Shown piece by piece: positions 26,152-33,702 of a stretch of 64,000 bases of DNA (its first letter is position 1; every line of letters begins with the position of its first letter). Location of the stretch: contig NZ_CP006019.1 in the NCBI RefSeq assembly GCF_000725425.1, positions 1-64,000 on the forward strand, read 5' to 3'. The translations under genes were made by a program, and so were the position numbers. Source of the stretch: Palaeococcus pacificus DY20341 (GTDB lineage Archaea > Methanobacteriota_B > Thermococci > Thermococcales > Thermococcaceae). A model generated the notes under the pieces. It saw nothing but the letters and a program-made list of their open reading frames with translations. It was not told where the DNA came from and did no database searches.

Positions 26152-26730
26152 ATGAGAATTGCAATTCCTTATTTAATCTTTGAGGTGAAGGGAAAGGAGT
26201 ATATGATAGATGCTTACTTTTCAAAGAAGGTTGAGCGAATAGAAAGGGTAAGCGCCCTTATACGGCCCTTCGATAGGAGCCTCAGGAGGGAGTGCGAGGG
26301 CTCATTGGAGCCTTTAATTAAGGAAGAGGATTTGGAAGGTTTTTTGAAAGAGGTGTTTAGAGAGGTTTACGAACTTTCTGGTGAGAAGCTCAAGAGTCGT
26401 TTGAGCCACATGAGGCGGTGGAACATTTTTAGGCTTCTCGGGCTCCCTACGGGATATAAACGGCACTTAAAGGAGGAAGAAGAGCTTGCAAAGGAAAACA
26501 GAGAAGCCTTGCTGGCCCTTGCGATACTAAAAAATGTTTTAGGTATTAAAAGCCCTAAAGAGCTTGAAAATCTCCATATACTTGTCAGGGGCTACAGATA
26601 CTATGCAGTGGAAATTGGGGAGAGCATCTACAACGAGAAGGGCAAAGAGGACAAAATTTACGCTCAGCTTCTAAAAATTGATGAGAGCTTCAAAAAAGAA
26701 ATAGAGAGGATGGCTCACTTCTTTGAGTAG
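26152..26730 (+). CDS. Unrecognised 192-residue protein
   Basis: No known domain is recognised. The sequence is basic and helical in the middle (SRLSHMRRWNIFRLLGLPTGYKRHL) and acidic at the C-terminus, with a beta-rich start (AIPYLIFEVKGKEYMIDAYF). GGTGGGG precedes ATG 26152. It is divergent from hel308 and overlaps the end of the Dpp ATPase gene by 16 bases. It is probably a soluble Thermococcales-type protein. Confidence 0.7.
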   Translation: MRIAIPYLIFEVKGKEYMIDAYFSKKVERIERVSALIRPFDRSLRRECEGSLEPLIKEEDLEGFLKEVFREVYELSGEKLKSRLSHMRRWNIFRLLGLPTGYKRHLKEEEELAKENREALLALAILKNVLGIKSPKELENLHILVRGYRYYAVEIGESIYNEKGKEDKIYAQLLKIDESFKKEIERMAHFFE

Positions 26731-27695
26731 AGCCAGCAGGCTACATAGTGGTCTTTTTCCGCTTCTACTAATGGGGGTTCTTCTTTTCTGCAGATTTCCT
26801 TTGCAAATGGGCATCTTGGGTTGAAGCGGCATCCCTTTGGTGGATTAATTGGGCTTGGCGGTTCTCCTTCGATCTTTTGCCTCTTAGCTTTAAGCTCTGC
26901 CGCAAGCTCGGGGTCTGGGACAGGTATTGCCGAGAGGAGGAGTTGGGTGTATGGGTGAAGTGGGTTTTCGAAGATTTCATCGGATGGTCCAATCTCTACG
27001 AGCTTTCCTAGGTACATAACTCCCATTCTGTGGCTCATATATTTGACAACTCCCAAATCGTGGGATATGAAGAGGTATGTAAATCCAAAGTCCTTCTGAA
27101 GGTCTTTTAACGTGTTGAGAATGTTGGCTTGGACTGAAACATCTAGAGCGGATGTTGGCTCATCCAAAACTATGAACTCCGGCTTCATTGCTAAGAGCCT
27201 TGCTAGAGCTATTCTCTGTCTCTGTCCACCGCTGAACTCGTGGGGATAACGGTAAAGGTGCATCTCGTTTAATCCAACACTCTCTAAGAGCTTTATTACG
27301 AATTCTTCGGGGTCGTCTATATGGATTTTGTGGAATCTAACGGGCTCCATTATAACTTCAAACACAGTTTGTCTGGGATTTAAGGAGGAGTAGGGATCCT
27401 GGAACATGATTTGTGCTTTTCTTCTAAACCACTTCATTCCCTCCTTATCCAGCTCCATGATGTTCTTGCCTTCAAAGATTATCTCTCCATCTGTTGGCTC
27501 AATTAGTCTCAATATTGTCCTTCCCGTGGTGGTTTTTCCACAGCCACTCTCTCCTACAAGTCCAAATGTCTCTCCTTTGCGTATATCAAAGCTTATGTCA
27601 TCAACAGCTTTGACGTATCCCTTCGTGAAAAACAATCCTTTAACTGGGAAGTATTTCTTTAGATGTCTAACTTGAAGTATCGGCTCCAATTTCAT
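26715..27695 (-). CDS. dppF: Peptide ABC transporter ATPase, OppF/DppF type
   Basis: The 326-residue nucleotide-binding subunit carries Walker A GESGCGKTT, the signature FSGGQRQR, Walker B FIVLDEPTSALD and the oligopeptide-family C-terminal Cys motif (CRFNPRCPFAKEIC) that binds an Fe-S cluster in related proteins. The start at ATG 27695 follows the dppD stop by four bases. It is the last gene of a five-gene importer operon and pairs with DppD. Confidence 0.93.
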   Translation of the reverse strand: MKLEPILQVRHLKKYFPVKGLFFTKGYVKAVDDISFDIRKGETFGLVGESGCGKTTTGRTILRLIEPTDGEIIFEGKNIMELDKEGMKWFRRKAQIMFQDPYSSLNPRQTVFEVIMEPVRFHKIHIDDPEEFVIKLLESVGLNEMHLYRYPHEFSGGQRQRIALARLLAMKPEFIVLDEPTSALDVSVQANILNTLKDLQKDFGFTYLFISHDLGVVKYMSHRMGVMYLGKLVEIGPSDEIFENPLHPYTQLLLSAIPVPDPELAAELKAKRQKIEGEPPSPINPPKGCRFNPRCPFAKEICRKEEPPLVEAEKDHYVACWLYSKK

Positions 27696-27699
27696 CACC

Positions 27700-28677
27700 T
27701 CAATACAAGTGGCAGGCCACGAAGTGTCCGTCTTCAACCTCTTTCAATTCGGGCACCTTTTGCTTGCAAATTTCCTTTGCAAATGGGCACCTTGGATGGA
27801 ACCTACATCCTCCTGGCGGCTTGATGAGGTTGGGTACTGTTCCGGGAATAGCTTCTAAACGCTCGATTTTTGTCATTGGGTTTGGAACTGCTCTAAGTAG
27901 ACCTTGGGTGTATGGGTGGAGTGGGTTCTTGAATATCTGCTTAGCAGTTCCAATCTCCGCTATTTTACCCGCGTACATTACCGCAATTCTATCCGCCATT
28001 TCAGCAACTACACCCATATTGTGGGTGATTAAGATAACAGTGGTGTTGTATTCTCTCTTGAGTTTGTTCATCAACTCTAAAATTTGAGCTTGAACCGTAA
28101 CATCTAATGCAGTTGTTGGCTCGTCCGCTATGAGTATCTTAGGATTATTGGTTAGGCCAGTTCCAATAACAACTCTCTGCTTCATTCCACCGCTCATTTC
28201 GTGTGGGTAATTCTTAATTCTGCTTTCTGGATCGGGAATTAAAACTCTCTTTAATATGTCTAAAGCCTTCTTAAATCCGTCCTTCCAGTCTTTAACGGTA
28301 TTGTGGACCACCATTGCTTCCGCTATTTGGTATCCAACGTTGTAGAGAGGATCTAAAGATGCGTGTGGGTCTTGGAAAATGTAGGCTATGTCCTTCCCCC
28401 TAATCTCCCTTATCTCTTCTTCATTTAATTTTAGCAAATCAATTGGGCCGTTGTCTGAGTGGTATATTACGCTACCCTTTACTATCCTTCCGGGGCTCTC
28501 GATTAGTTGGGTTAATGCCCTTGATGTAACGCTTTTTCCACACCCCGTTTCTCCAACGAGGGCAAAAGTTTCTCCCTTATAAACATCGAAAGAGACGCTT
28601 TCAATGGCTTTAACTACTCCAGCATAGGTGTAAAAGTGAACCGTTAAATCCCTAACCTCTAAAATAGGCTCAGGCAT
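27700..28677 (-). CDS. dppD: Peptide ABC transporter ATPase, OppD/DppD type
   Basis: The 325-residue ATPase has Walker A GETGCGKS, signature MSGGMKQR, Walker B ILIADEPTTALD and the C-terminal motif CRFHPRCPFAKEIC. ATG 28677 overlaps the end of dppC by eight bases, with GGTGAGAG as ribosome site. It forms a heterodimer with the DppF product to power peptide or oligosaccharide uptake. Confidence 0.93.
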   Translation of the reverse strand: MPEPILEVRDLTVHFYTYAGVVKAIESVSFDVYKGETFALVGETGCGKSVTSRALTQLIESPGRIVKGSVIYHSDNGPIDLLKLNEEEIREIRGKDIAYIFQDPHASLDPLYNVGYQIAEAMVVHNTVKDWKDGFKKALDILKRVLIPDPESRIKNYPHEMSGGMKQRVVIGTGLTNNPKILIADEPTTALDVTVQAQILELMNKLKREYNTTVILITHNMGVVAEMADRIAVMYAGKIAEIGTAKQIFKNPLHPYTQGLLRAVPNPMTKIERLEAIPGTVPNLIKPPGGCRFHPRCPFAKEICKQKVPELKEVEDGHFVACHLY

Positions 28678-29827
28678 TGCTCTCACCTTCCTTTTCTTCC
28701 ATTTGCTTCGTCTTCTTAACTTTGAATTCTATGCTCCTTCTCGTCTTTGGATCGAGAATGTCCCTCAGCGTGTCACCCAATAGGTTCCAGCCCAATGCAA
28801 CGAGCGTAACCATGAATCCTGGGTATACGATCAACCACCATGCTTTTGGGAAGAACTGCGCACCATCGTAAACTATTCTACCCCAGTCTGCTATTGGTGG
28901 AGTAGCACCTAGTCCAAGGAAGCTCAATCCAGCTTCCATCAAAACGACACCACCGAAGTCTAAGGTGATGTAAACCAATATTGGGCCTATGATGTTGGGT
29001 AGGATGTGCTTGAACATTATCGTCCAAGAGCTTAGACCTATAGCCCTGGCAGCTTCAACATAGAGATTTTCCTTTTCCGTTAGGGTTGAACCTCTGGTTA
29101 TTCTTGCGTAAGCGGGCCACCAAACTATAATCATCGCTAAAATTACCGATAACAATCTTCCGAGGTTTCCAGCTTCTCTAACATCTAATGCAAACAGCCA
29201 AAGAACAAAGCCTTGAAGGTGAGCGTGACTTGAGATGAACGCTTGCAATCTCTCGGGCAAAACTGCGGAGAGTGCAATTGCTAATATCAATGCGGGGAAT
29301 GCCAAGAACATGTCTGTAATACGCATTACGAGCTCATCGACTTTTCCTCCATAGTAGCCTGCTGTTAATCCTAAGATGATTCCCAAAGGCACACCCAAAA
29401 CAATGACTATTATTGAGATTACAAATGATGTTCTAGCTCCGGCCAATAGGAGGCTTAGTAAGTCTCTTCCATAGTGGTCAGCACCTAGAGAGAATGTCAT
29501 TGATGTTCCCTGTTGTGGGAGGTAAATTTGGGTTCCTGGTGATGCTAAATAGGCGGTTCCATTTTCGAATAGTGGGAAGTAGTTGTATGGCCATGGAGCT
29601 AACCTTGGACCAAATACGCCTAAGAAGATGAATATCAATACCAAAGCTAATCCTATGAGTCCTGGAGGAGAGCGGTTTAAGGCATAGAGCATTAAGCGCC
29701 ACTCTTCCATTTTGGACTTGTTTTTCTTCTTCCAGTCTTTTTTAAACAAGTTGATAAATGAGCCTAAACAACTAACCACTGCATCTGCAAGCCTATCTAA
29801 AATTCCTTTCCTATACTCATCTTGCAT
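28670..29827 (-). CDS. dppC: Peptide ABC transporter permease, DppC type
   Basis: The 385-residue permease contains the BPD_transp_1 EAA loop (EAARAIGLSSWTIMFKHILPN) and six or more membrane helices. It is longer than bacterial DppC by about 80 residues: a charged N-terminal tail (KKDWKKKNKSKMEEW) and an extracellular loop of about 50 residues after TM1. GGGGGG precedes ATG 29827. It sits between dppB and dppD in the operon. Confidence 0.92.
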   Translation of the reverse strand: MQDEYRKGILDRLADAVVSCLGSFINLFKKDWKKKNKSKMEEWRLMLYALNRSPPGLIGLALVLIFIFLGVFGPRLAPWPYNYFPLFENGTAYLASPGTQIYLPQQGTSMTFSLGADHYGRDLLSLLLAGARTSFVISIIVIVLGVPLGIILGLTAGYYGGKVDELVMRITDMFLAFPALILAIALSAVLPERLQAFISSHAHLQGFVLWLFALDVREAGNLGRLLSVILAMIIVWWPAYARITRGSTLTEKENLYVEAARAIGLSSWTIMFKHILPNIIGPILVYITLDFGGVVLMEAGLSFLGLGATPPIADWGRIVYDGAQFFPKAWWLIVYPGFMVTLVALGWNLLGDTLRDILDPKTRRSIEFKVKKTKQMEEKEGESNA

Positions 29828-29838
29828 TTTAAACCCCC

Positions 29839-30840
29839 CTAGTACCTCACTCTTGGATCAATCACTGCATAGAGGATATCTACGATAAGATTAGCAGTAA
29901 CATAGACCAATGCGAATATGAATGTCACCGCTATAACTGCTGGGAAGTCGAGGTTTTGAATTGCTTGAATGGCATAACGTCCCATTCCTGGAATTCCAAA
30001 GACTGTCTCGGTAATTGGTGCACCGGCTAATAGACCGCCGAATTGTAAACCTAATACCGTGATAATTGGAACCAGTGCGTTTTTCAAAGCGTGTCTGTAA
30101 ACTCTAAGCTTTGGAACACCTTTAGCTTTTAGGAAACCTATGTAATCACTGCTTAAGGCCTCTAGGAAGGAGTTCCTCACGAACCTCGCCACGACACCTG
30201 AGCCGAGGAATCCTAAAACGAAGCCTGGGAGCCAAAATCTTCCGATGTGTTGCTTAAATAGTGTGAACTCTCCCGTTAGCAGAGCATCTATTAAGGGGAT
30301 GTGGGTTATTTGAGTAGACGGAGCTGGAGGAACACCGGCTAAATTTATAACTCTAAACTTGACAAAGAATATGAATATCAATATATATCCGAGCCAAAAT
30401 ACCGGCGTGGACACTCCAAGCAGAGCGAATATTCTAACAACAGTATCAATCCACGTATTTCTCTTAAGGGCGGAGAGTATTCCCAATGGAATTCCAATTA
30501 TCAGCACAAAGAAAAACGCCACCAGAGCCAGCTCAAACGTTATTGGAAAACGCCGGCCAACATCGTCCATGACTGGATTTGAAGTCCTTGGGTCAATTAT
30601 CTCATTCTTTGCAAGCCCTGAAACTAGGAACCAATACTGGTCATACCATGGATCATTGAGATGGTATTGCTCCTTTATTCTTTCTATTGCCTCTGGGGAT
30701 GCTTTTTCTCCTCCTGCCCAAGCTCTTGCTGGGTCTGCTGGAATTACATAGGCAATTACGAAAACTATAAGGGTAACTCCGATCAGAGTGGGCAAAAATG
30801 TCAGAATTCTTCTAATTAAAAACTTCTTCAATTCTGCCAA
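29839..30840 (-). CDS. dppB: Peptide ABC transporter permease, DppB type
   Basis: The 333-residue protein has the DppB N-terminal helix (FLIRRILTFLPTLIGVTLIVF), ITFELALVAF and the EAA loop (FLKAKGVPKLRVYRHALKNAL). The start is TTG at 30840, with GGGGGG five bases before it; no in-frame ATG lies near. It heads the permease part, about 140 bp downstream of the binding-protein gene, with T-rich DNA between. Confidence 0.92.
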   Translation of the reverse strand: MAELKKFLIRRILTFLPTLIGVTLIVFVIAYVIPADPARAWAGGEKASPEAIERIKEQYHLNDPWYDQYWFLVSGLAKNEIIDPRTSNPVMDDVGRRFPITFELALVAFFFVLIIGIPLGILSALKRNTWIDTVVRIFALLGVSTPVFWLGYILIFIFFVKFRVINLAGVPPAPSTQITHIPLIDALLTGEFTLFKQHIGRFWLPGFVLGFLGSGVVARFVRNSFLEALSSDYIGFLKAKGVPKLRVYRHALKNALVPIITVLGLQFGGLLAGAPITETVFGIPGMGRYAIQAIQNLDFPAVIAVTFIFALVYVTANLIVDILYAVIDPRVRY

Positions 30841-30976: not shown

Positions 30977-33118
30977 TCAAGGCTTGTAGCCGTACTCCTT
31001 CTCCCAGAGGTCTTTGTTCCAGTAGTATGGGTTCAATTCAAGGACGATGTAGCTGTTCTCTTCGTATTCTTTAACATAGTATGGACCAGTACCGACTGGA
31101 TACTTGTGGACTAATTGGTGTGTTGGGTCTTCTTCTCCCTCTTGGACGTAGGGCTCCCAGGCGCTTGGGTTCTTACCGTTGTTTGAAGCCTTTAGTGCTT
31201 CCTCATACTTGTCTCCGAGGAGGTACTCCATTGGAAGCACTGAGAGGAATGGATCAGCCACAACACCGAGGATTGGAGCATATGGAGCTGGCATGACGAG
31301 CTTATAGACTCCTGCAGTCTCTCCGCTGTAGCCGAAGAGGTTGAGCAAGTCTTGCATTGATTTGACTTCAATGCTCTTTCCATCGTATTCAGCTACTATC
31401 TTTCCACTCTTCAATACGTCCTCAAACTCTTGCTCTGTTAGGGCTTGTGAGTTTTCAACATCCATGAACTCGGCTACCATCCATGAGACGCTGTGTCCCA
31501 ATCTTTGGACACGCCAGAATGTGAAGGCAACATCTGTTGCATCGATTGGGTATGTCTTGTCGTTCCATGGGTCATAAGCCTTAACGCCGCCTCTAATGAC
31601 GAAATACCACTCAGTTCCGTCCTCGTTGTGTGCCCAAGCAACAGCTAAGTCTGGTATTACTTTTTCGGTCTCCTCCTTCCAGTAAGTAACTAGTGTGTCG
31701 CCAATCTCATGCCAGATTTCCCATCCGAATGTCTCATAGGTCATTGCTGGGTCAAAGCTCTCTGGCCATCCAATTGTGCCTATAACATAGGTGTTTGGAT
31801 CGTTCTTGTAGTCCTTAATACCAATGTCCACTGTTGGTGCATTTGGATCTTCCCAGATGAGATCATACCTCTCAGCAAATGTTGGGTGGTAGTAGCGTCC
31901 CTTAACCCAGTCCCAGTAGACACGCATTTGCTTGTTTTGTCCAATAATGACCTCTGGAACGTACTTGTTGCCCTTGATGTAGAGGGCCTTGAAGAGCTCA
32001 GTTCTTACTTCTGGAGAGGTTTCTCTTCTAACTGCGACAACTAAGGCATCGACATTTGTGTCTCTGAAGAATGCTGGGTTGATAGCACCAAAGCCTTGGC
32101 CAGCTTCCATTAACTCTTGAATTGATGGGGTGTTCTCTTCGTCAACAACATAGCTTATAGCTATGACTTTCTTTCCGCTTGGCAAGCTAACGCTTGCGCC
32201 ACTTCCCTTTGAACCAACGACGATAACACTTGCATCGGTCTCAATGACTTCAGCTTCACTCATCATTGAGCTTATGTCATCAGCGGTTGCATCTACCTTA
32301 ACGTTGAGCTCCTTAAACTTGGTTGCTCCATAGAGGAATGGACCTGCCCAGTTGTCTGAGTCTAAATAGTCTGGCACCCAACCAACAACATAAACATCGA
32401 AGTCACCCTTGCTAACCTTTCCTAAGTAAACTGGCCACTCATAGCTTGATACTGTAACTTGGAATCCGAGTTGGCTCCAGACGTTTTGCAAGAATGTCAT
32501 GATCTTCTCACGAGCTGAGTTTCCAGCGTTATAAATGAGCTCAATCTTGTATTGTGTTGGGTCTATTCCGGCTTCTTGGAGCATTTGCTTGGCTTTATCT
32601 AAGTTATAGGTGTACTTCTCAATTCCGAATTCTGTGTAGCCTGGCCATGGCTTTGGAATTGGACCCCAGTTCCTCTCCATATTGCCGGAATATACAGTTT
32701 GGATGATTTGATCGTAGGGGATAGCGTAGGCTAGGGCTTCCCTAACTTTTGGGTTATTGAAAGGCTCTCTTTGGGTGTTGAATACGATAAATGTCAAAAT
32801 TGGTTGCAATATGTCAGTTTTAACTACTGAGTTGTATCCTTGGAATTCTAATCCTTTAACATCATTAATTCTCTCGGGTGGAATTGCAACGTTATCAACT
32901 GTTCCTGTTTGGAACAAGTTGATTCTTGCAATGGCATCATCGTTGATTACATACAAAACCTGCTTGTGGATTGCTTTTTGAGCGGTGGTCTCTGTTTGAG
33001 TTGTTTCGCTTGGTGTTGAAGTTGTTGTAGTTTGACCTCCTCCACCTATACATCCACTTGCAACAACTGCAAAGGCCATAAGGCCTATTAACAATATAGC
33101 CAGCATTGGTTTTTTCAT
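30977..33118 (-). CDS. dppA: Family-5 substrate-binding lipoprotein, apparently circularly permuted
   Basis: The 713-residue protein has a lipoprotein signal with lipobox VASGC (Cys23) and a Thr-rich linker to about 46. Compared with E. coli DppA the order of the SBP_bac_5 fold is switched. Residues about 50-430 match the C-terminal half of DppA (FNTQREPFNNPKVREALAYA, SYEWPVYLGKVSKGDFDVYV). Residues about 440-713 match the N-terminal half (GTIGWPESFDPAMTYETFG, VIPDLAVAWAHNEDGTEWYF, YPVGTGPYYVKEYEENS). GGAGGGG before ATG 33118 sets the start. It is the first gene of the dpp operon and should capture peptides or oligosaccharides outside the cell. About 105 residues before residue 400 show no clear match. 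Confidence 0.88.
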   Translation of the reverse strand: MKKPMLAILLIGLMAFAVVASGCIGGGGQTTTTSTPSETTQTETTAQKAIHKQVLYVINDDAIARINLFQTGTVDNVAIPPERINDVKGLEFQGYNSVVKTDILQPILTFIVFNTQREPFNNPKVREALAYAIPYDQIIQTVYSGNMERNWGPIPKPWPGYTEFGIEKYTYNLDKAKQMLQEAGIDPTQYKIELIYNAGNSAREKIMTFLQNVWSQLGFQVTVSSYEWPVYLGKVSKGDFDVYVVGWVPDYLDSDNWAGPFLYGATKFKELNVKVDATADDISSMMSEAEVIETDASVIVVGSKGSGASVSLPSGKKVIAISYVVDEENTPSIQELMEAGQGFGAINPAFFRDTNVDALVVAVRRETSPEVRTELFKALYIKGNKYVPEVIIGQNKQMRVYWDWVKGRYYHPTFAERYDLIWEDPNAPTVDIGIKDYKNDPNTYVIGTIGWPESFDPAMTYETFGWEIWHEIGDTLVTYWKEETEKVIPDLAVAWAHNEDGTEWYFVIRGGVKAYDPWNDKTYPIDATDVAFTFWRVQRLGHSVSWMVAEFMDVENSQALTEQEFEDVLKSGKIVAEYDGKSIEVKSMQDLLNLFGYSGETAGVYKLVMPAPYAPILGVVADPFLSVLPMEYLLGDKYEEALKASNNGKNPSAWEPYVQEGEEDPTHQLVHKYPVGTGPYYVKEYEENSYIVLELNPYYWNKDLWEKEYGYKP

Positions 33119-33459: not shown

Positions 33460-33702
33460 ATGGTTAGAGCGTATGTTTTGTTGACGGTAGAGATTGGAAA
33501 AGTTGAAAAAGTCCTTGAAGAGGTCAATGCAATACCAGGCGTAATAAAAGCTGATGCAGTGACAGGCCCTTATGATGCAATAGTTCACATTGAGGCCGCA
33601 GATTTGGGAGAACTGACCAGAAAAATCCTGCATGACATACACAACATCGACGGCGTTATAGACACAACAACAGCAATAGTGGTAGAATTGGAAGAGGAGT
33701 GA
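33460..33702 (+). CDS. Stand-alone RAM (Lrp/AsnC effector) domain protein
   Basis: The 80-residue protein is only the ligand-binding domain of Lrp-type regulators (MVRAYVLLTVEIGKVEKVLE...GPYDAIVHIEA...VIDTTTAIVVELEEE), with no DNA-binding domain. Such SraM-type proteins form ring or dimer assemblies, can bind amino acids and may modulate full-length Lrp proteins. GGTGGTG precedes ATG 33460. Its stop is one base from the end of the convergent SRP19 gene. Confidence 0.88.
   Translation: MVRAYVLLTVEIGKVEKVLEEVNAIPGVIKADAVTGPYDAIVHIEAADLGELTRKILHDIHNIDGVIDTTTAIVVELEEE

Follow-up and report, generated by a model that had tools for sequence, protein, structure and literature searches.

The window, a 64,000-nucleotide stretch of the chromosome of the deep-sea archaeon Palaeococcus pacificus DY20341 (NZ_CP006019.1, positions 1 to 64,000), carries an intact dppBCDF operon whose first gene encodes a 713-residue family-5 solute-binding protein (SBP), termed P0001, with its start ATG at 33118. 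As in Dpp/Opp ABC importers, the SBP gene is followed by two permease and two ATPase genes. The protein body is divided into three blocks, named so that the canonical family-5 order is A-B-C. The features of the locus, with the basis of assignment in brackets, are:

33460..33702, plus strand: divergent 80-aa ORF upstream of the operon (synteny)
30977..33118, minus strand: circularly permuted family-5 solute-binding lipoprotein P0001, order B-C-A (Pfam, PDB matches, AlphaFold)
33050..33118, minus strand: signal peptide with lipobox ASG/CIGG, at the position it has in the Thermococcus orthologue (sequence; DNA collinear with the G086 gene)
32978..33049, minus strand: Thr/Ser-rich linker after the lipobox (sequence; residues 1-46 with pLDDT <50)
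32282..32977, minus strand: block B, residues 48-279, the canonical middle part, PF00496 positions 148-365 (Pfam, PDB matches)
32261..32281, minus strand: B/C junction, within residues ~278-289, new relative to C-A-B orthologues
31799..32260, minus strand: block C, residues 287-440, the canonical C-terminal lobe piece with an N-terminal extension
31793..31840, minus strand: C-A linker, residues 427-442, conserved in B-C-A and C-A-B proteins as a shared fusion point
30980..31798, minus strand: block A, residues 441-713, the canonical N-terminal part, with KEYGYKP as the new C-terminus
29839..30840, minus strand: DppB-type permease (Pfam)
28670..29827, minus strand: DppC-type permease (Pfam)
27700..28686, minus strand: DppD-type ATPase (Pfam)
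26715..27737, minus strand: DppF-type ATPase (ORF; similarity to ATPases of related operons)

The DppF-type ATPase probably starts at the inner ATG of MKLEPILQ. The divergent 80-aa ORF, which by eye may resemble an Lrp/AsnC ligand domain, is conserved ahead of the operon at the majority of Thermococcales loci examined. A scan for promoter-like patterns returned matches at chance number only. The P. pacificus dipeptide transport genes PAP_00150-00170 are reported to be expressed, at a level lowered with sulfur (PMC6981617); from their position near the chromosome start, we read these genes as the window operon.

P0001 has the signal peptide of a lipoprotein, with a lipobox recognized by inspection, and this signal peptide, the lipobox, and the Thr linker stand in place ahead of a B(48-279)-C(287-440)-A(441-713) body. 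SBP_bac_5 (PF00496) is the sole Pfam family found in the protein, scoring 217.6 bits against a gathering cut-off of 32.4. Rather than matching once from N to C, it is split into two pieces in reversed order, with residues 51-266 matching profile positions 148-365 and the C-terminal part matching positions 1-144. Each of the other PF00496 matches listed for the phylum runs as one collinear stretch, in some cases a partial one. The reversed order is a variation within the family, with homology to SBP_bac_5 retained. Comparison with PDB chains aligns residues 443-539 to the N-terminus of DppA, 666-701 to approximately 200-234, and 109-260 to 293-446; the DppA, HbpA, and OppA chains all match piecewise, the pieces together reading B-C-A against their A-B-C. 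The original ends are thus joined within a rotated chain, and new ends lie elsewhere. From the sequence, the first-pass annotation had described the halves as swapped relative to DppA/OppA, with a boundary near residue 440 and the natural end KEYGYKP continuing into AIHKQVLYV as in DppA. The swap, the boundary (C and A meet at 440/441), and the join are all borne out, as is the reversed profile order it had proposed to look for, no full-length N-to-C match being obtained.

As a single sequence, the C lobe piece (residues 349-419) matches the canonical C-terminus weakly; a single-sequence comparison of block C with PDB chains was likewise too weak (E 0.56), so profile-profile comparison was used. 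A C-block profile falls at the right place on solved family-5 C-termini with a weak match (best E 0.019), and against canonical archaeal C-termini it reaches 95.4% probability (E 1.7e-8) over 72 gap-free columns. In sequence comparison, no counterpart of the N-terminal extension of this block was seen among canonical outgroups. The PF00496 model itself stops short of the C-terminal lobe piece.

The AlphaFold (AF2) model of P0001, computed from an alignment of 75 rows that includes fragments of relatives, comprises one fold with a mean pLDDT of 85.6 and a pTM of 0.83, in agreement with the earlier expectation of one permuted fold rather than two complete domains. Values below 50 are restricted to the signal peptide and linker (residues 1-46) and to residues 251-255. 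The predicted architecture is the two-lobed SBP fold. Foldseek retrieves family-5 binding proteins (DppA/OppA/NikA) over ~370 aligned columns that form one contiguous arc, as would be expected if a sequential aligner can trace just a single arc when the chain is permuted. For a C-A-B orthologue, modelled with a pLDDT of 81.1, the Foldseek alignment covers ~495 columns, corresponding to the A-B arc. The circular-permutation reading of the first-pass annotation is supported overall, and we conclude with high confidence that P0001 serves a Dpp/Opp-type importer as its peptide-binding lipoprotein, a single two-lobed family-5 fold that is circularly permuted in the gene.

A misassembled repeat or a frameshift could mimic such an order, and 454 reads underlie the P. 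pacificus assembly (PMC4574382). An artefact of assembly or annotation is nonetheless barely credible. The gene is a single open frame, the genome is without a second close copy that could confuse assembly, and the same order occurs in two other, independent Palaeococcus genomes (G001, Guaymas MAG; 87-89% identity); with B-C-A in agreement across three Palaeococcus genomes, we reject this explanation. Moreover, strong purifying selection acts on the protein in Palaeococcus (dN/dS ~0.03-0.04 among the three genomes, with dS near saturation).

A phylogenetic survey, as the first-pass annotation had suggested, covered 94 Thermococcales genomes and found B-C-A confined to Palaeococcus (3/3 genomes examined). 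The orthologues are themselves permuted: in 56 other genomes (Pyrococcus/Thermococcus), C-A and then B are encoded on the same strand, with identity to P0001 of up to 84%, and C-A-B is the order in the other genera having the gene, as checked block by block in 36 proteins. Because PF00496 omits the C-terminal lobe, these C-A-B proteins look collinear to Pfam, and their permutation is hidden. The operon is conserved at the same locus across orthologues, and its permeases, ATPases, and SBP blocks show similar divergence from Palaeococcus, at about 80% identity.

Since the three blocks were compared separately, a chimera of halves from different SBP genes is conceivable. Such domain shuffling is very improbable, as blocks B, C, and A are similarly identical (82/78/86%) to one orthologue at the same locus (G086), and DNA identity to that gene is even, at ~77%, across both arcs. 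Every block matches one orthologue, and a two-gene chimera is rejected on that ground. At the DNA level, both flanks (5' and 3') and the signal peptide are collinear between the G086 and Palaeococcus genes and the two arcs are exchanged, which therefore indicates rearrangement in place and not a foreign gene. The lipobox, which the first-pass annotation took to be re-created by the permutation, is thus the original one, and only the body has been permuted. By eye, no remnant of block B, as a trace of duplication, was seen downstream of the gene in the intergenic stretches of the three Palaeococcus genomes, and a plasmid search for relatives returned distant partial matches only.

The locus varies elsewhere in the order. 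Some Thermococcus genomes carry a diverged SBP-dppBCDF operon at the same locus (L049, L063-L068), its SBP blocks being ~49-62% identical; this version is scattered on the rpoB tree, and in-place operon replacement is possible. Decayed operon copies (L051, L055, L054) comprise a large deletion in G078 and broken SBP genes in G028 and G014. One Pyrococcus genome (G007) has two C-A-B copies (L053, G007:C1:1812000-1826000, and the two ends of G007:C1), one of which is without adjacent transporter genes in the stretch read.

The nearest outgroup operon found, from another family of the same class (L057), encodes a canonical A-B-C binding protein, and in canonical outgroup proteins the blocks, wherever found, are ordered A, B, C. 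The C-A linker around EDPNAPTVDIGIKDYKND is gap-free with invariant residues in B-C-A proteins, C-A-B proteins, and a divergent C-A-B clade. This join is absent from the canonical order and shared by both permuted orders; it therefore has a single origin, and the two orders differ by an additional rearrangement, so that at least two rearrangements separate B-C-A and C-A-B from canonical A-B-C. Two independent permutations of an A-B-C ancestor would accord with the canonical outgroup, yet the gap-free linker with its invariant residues would have to arise twice; we consider this highly unlikely and reject independent origins because of the shared linker.

The maximum-likelihood SBP tree nests B-C-A within C-A-B, grouped with genera g4 and g5 (93/98), and the concatenated operon tree also nests it, beside two g3 sequences; the two trees place B-C-A differently, and its exact position is therefore unsure. 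When the divergent C-A-B clade serves as outgroup, the remaining C-A-B proteins are rejected as a single clade (p 0.008), whereas AU tests with a distant canonical outgroup leave C-A-B as one clade unrejected (p 0.097; p 0.157), and the rpoB tree gives a Thermococcales backbone without resolution. The trees favour the direction ABC to CAB to BCA without proving it. A different course, in which trimming of an ancestral A-B-C-A-B-C tandem fusion left C-A-B in most genera and B-C-A in Palaeococcus, is less likely but deserves serious consideration. It would account for the C-A linker common to both orders, the AU tests and rpoB leave the root position undecided, and a related family of the order includes a tandem-fused protein. 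It conflicts, however, with the nesting of B-C-A and with the rejection of a single ordinary C-A-B clade under the divergent outgroup, and the double-length form would have to survive several splits.

In the favoured stepwise course, each step would consist of an in-frame tandem gene duplication followed by trimming, which would place the termini in a different loop between strands of the lobes. The membrane tether would now enter at the start of block B, versus C or A in the other orders. We take D436 of DppA (precursor numbering) to hold the amino end of the bound peptide and R383 its carboxyl end. D436 aligns to D250 in the GWVPD motif of block B, and the DppA Arg at 383 is replaced by Asn197; both DppA residues are those mutated in a deposited structure (8z1z title). 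With D250 kept and the Arg changed to Asn197, P0001 may bind peptides through the free amino terminus and be less demanding at the opposite end. Peptides would then be passed to the DppBC permeases, feeding DppBCDF as for the C-A-B orthologues, and the function, judged from sequence, is likely ordinary peptide uptake.

Circular permutation recurs in Thermococcales family-5 SBPs. Outside the window, P. pacificus encodes in one copy an 814-aa family-5 protein, P0002 (G000:C1:1843260-1845701), that is rotated relative to PDB 7fi3, residues 497-744 corresponding to chain positions 4-253 and residues 31-494 to 261-722. At its gene (L061 3258-5702, minus strand; G000:C1:1843257-1845701), the product ends in a C-terminal Thr linker and membrane anchor, and two permease genes follow. 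Four-block profile placement of 67 7fi3-like proteins of the order Thermococcales recovered all four cyclic orders: adbc in 16 (canonical), dbca in 25, bcad in 14, and cadb in 9, the remainder being one 2085-aa bcadbcad protein and two incomplete sequences; these counts describe a sample, in which a few proteins were fetched twice, and are not frequencies. On a tree of 61 of these proteins, at least six order changes are required, the minimum for four states being three. Visual comparison of the sequences places the bcad break in the A|B loop where the P0001 termini lie, and the cadb break in the B-C connection that holds the termini of the C-A-B orthologues. The 2085-aa protein (L199 1879-8133, plus strand) holds two tandem bcad SBP units and Ig-like domains, and this bcadbcad arrangement indicates that in-frame duplications of such genes occur. 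We regard it as likely that Thermococcales family-5 SBPs repeatedly change circular order at a few loops and form a natural permutant series, probably via in-frame tandem duplication and trimming. Separately, a 1454-aa archaeal protein (L204 810-5171, plus strand) joins a family-5 SBP, PEGA repeats, and a protein kinase domain (Pfam), an architecture suggestive of a receptor kinase that senses peptides.

As a rule, a natural circular permutation stands alone, is ancient, and is difficult to trace. In the present case, rotation distinguishes close orthologues (up to 84% identical, in the same operon), and every four-block rotation is represented in a second family, which provides material for asking how genes permute, which loops tolerate new ends, and whether moved tethers or ends alter stability or transport at high temperature. 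The ends of these family-5 SBPs have been moved repeatedly in nature without visible breakage of the protein, and a Pfam SBP_bac_5 assignment can conceal permuted cases. The open-access literature yielded no account of a permuted SBP in family 5, archaeal ones included, or in Thermococcales; subscription papers, any on 7fi3 included, were outside this search.

P0001 shares with the DppA-OppA proteins of SBP_bac_5 (PF00496, cluster C) the fold, the A/B/C segments, the GW..D motif, and the operon type, and it differs from them in reading B-C-A instead of A-B-C and in a longer segment at the B-C join. By locus, operon, and sequence, it belongs to the orthologous group of the PF1408-type Pyrococcus dipeptide-binding lipoprotein (PMC3824201), with which it also shares the C-A linker, whereas the order there is C-A-B. 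The P. furiosus C-A-B orthologue is most likely PF1408 itself, the match being by signal-peptide likeness and size only; PF1408 is a lipoprotein found in culture supernatant and carries the same lipobox motif as P0001 (PMC3824201). TpMglB-2 of Treponema pallidum ("Type Ic") is likewise a natural circularly permuted solute-binding lipoprotein, of cluster B (PMC4990184); unlike P0001, it is a sugar protein with one known rotation, and its moved part is poorly conserved. The archaeal OppA-like family of PDB 7fi3, P0002 included, consists of family-5 SBPs from the same order as P0001, its bcad members using the A|B loop as P0001 does and its cadb members the B|C connection as the P0001 orthologues do, but this family is distant, bears a C-terminal anchor, and displays all four rotations.
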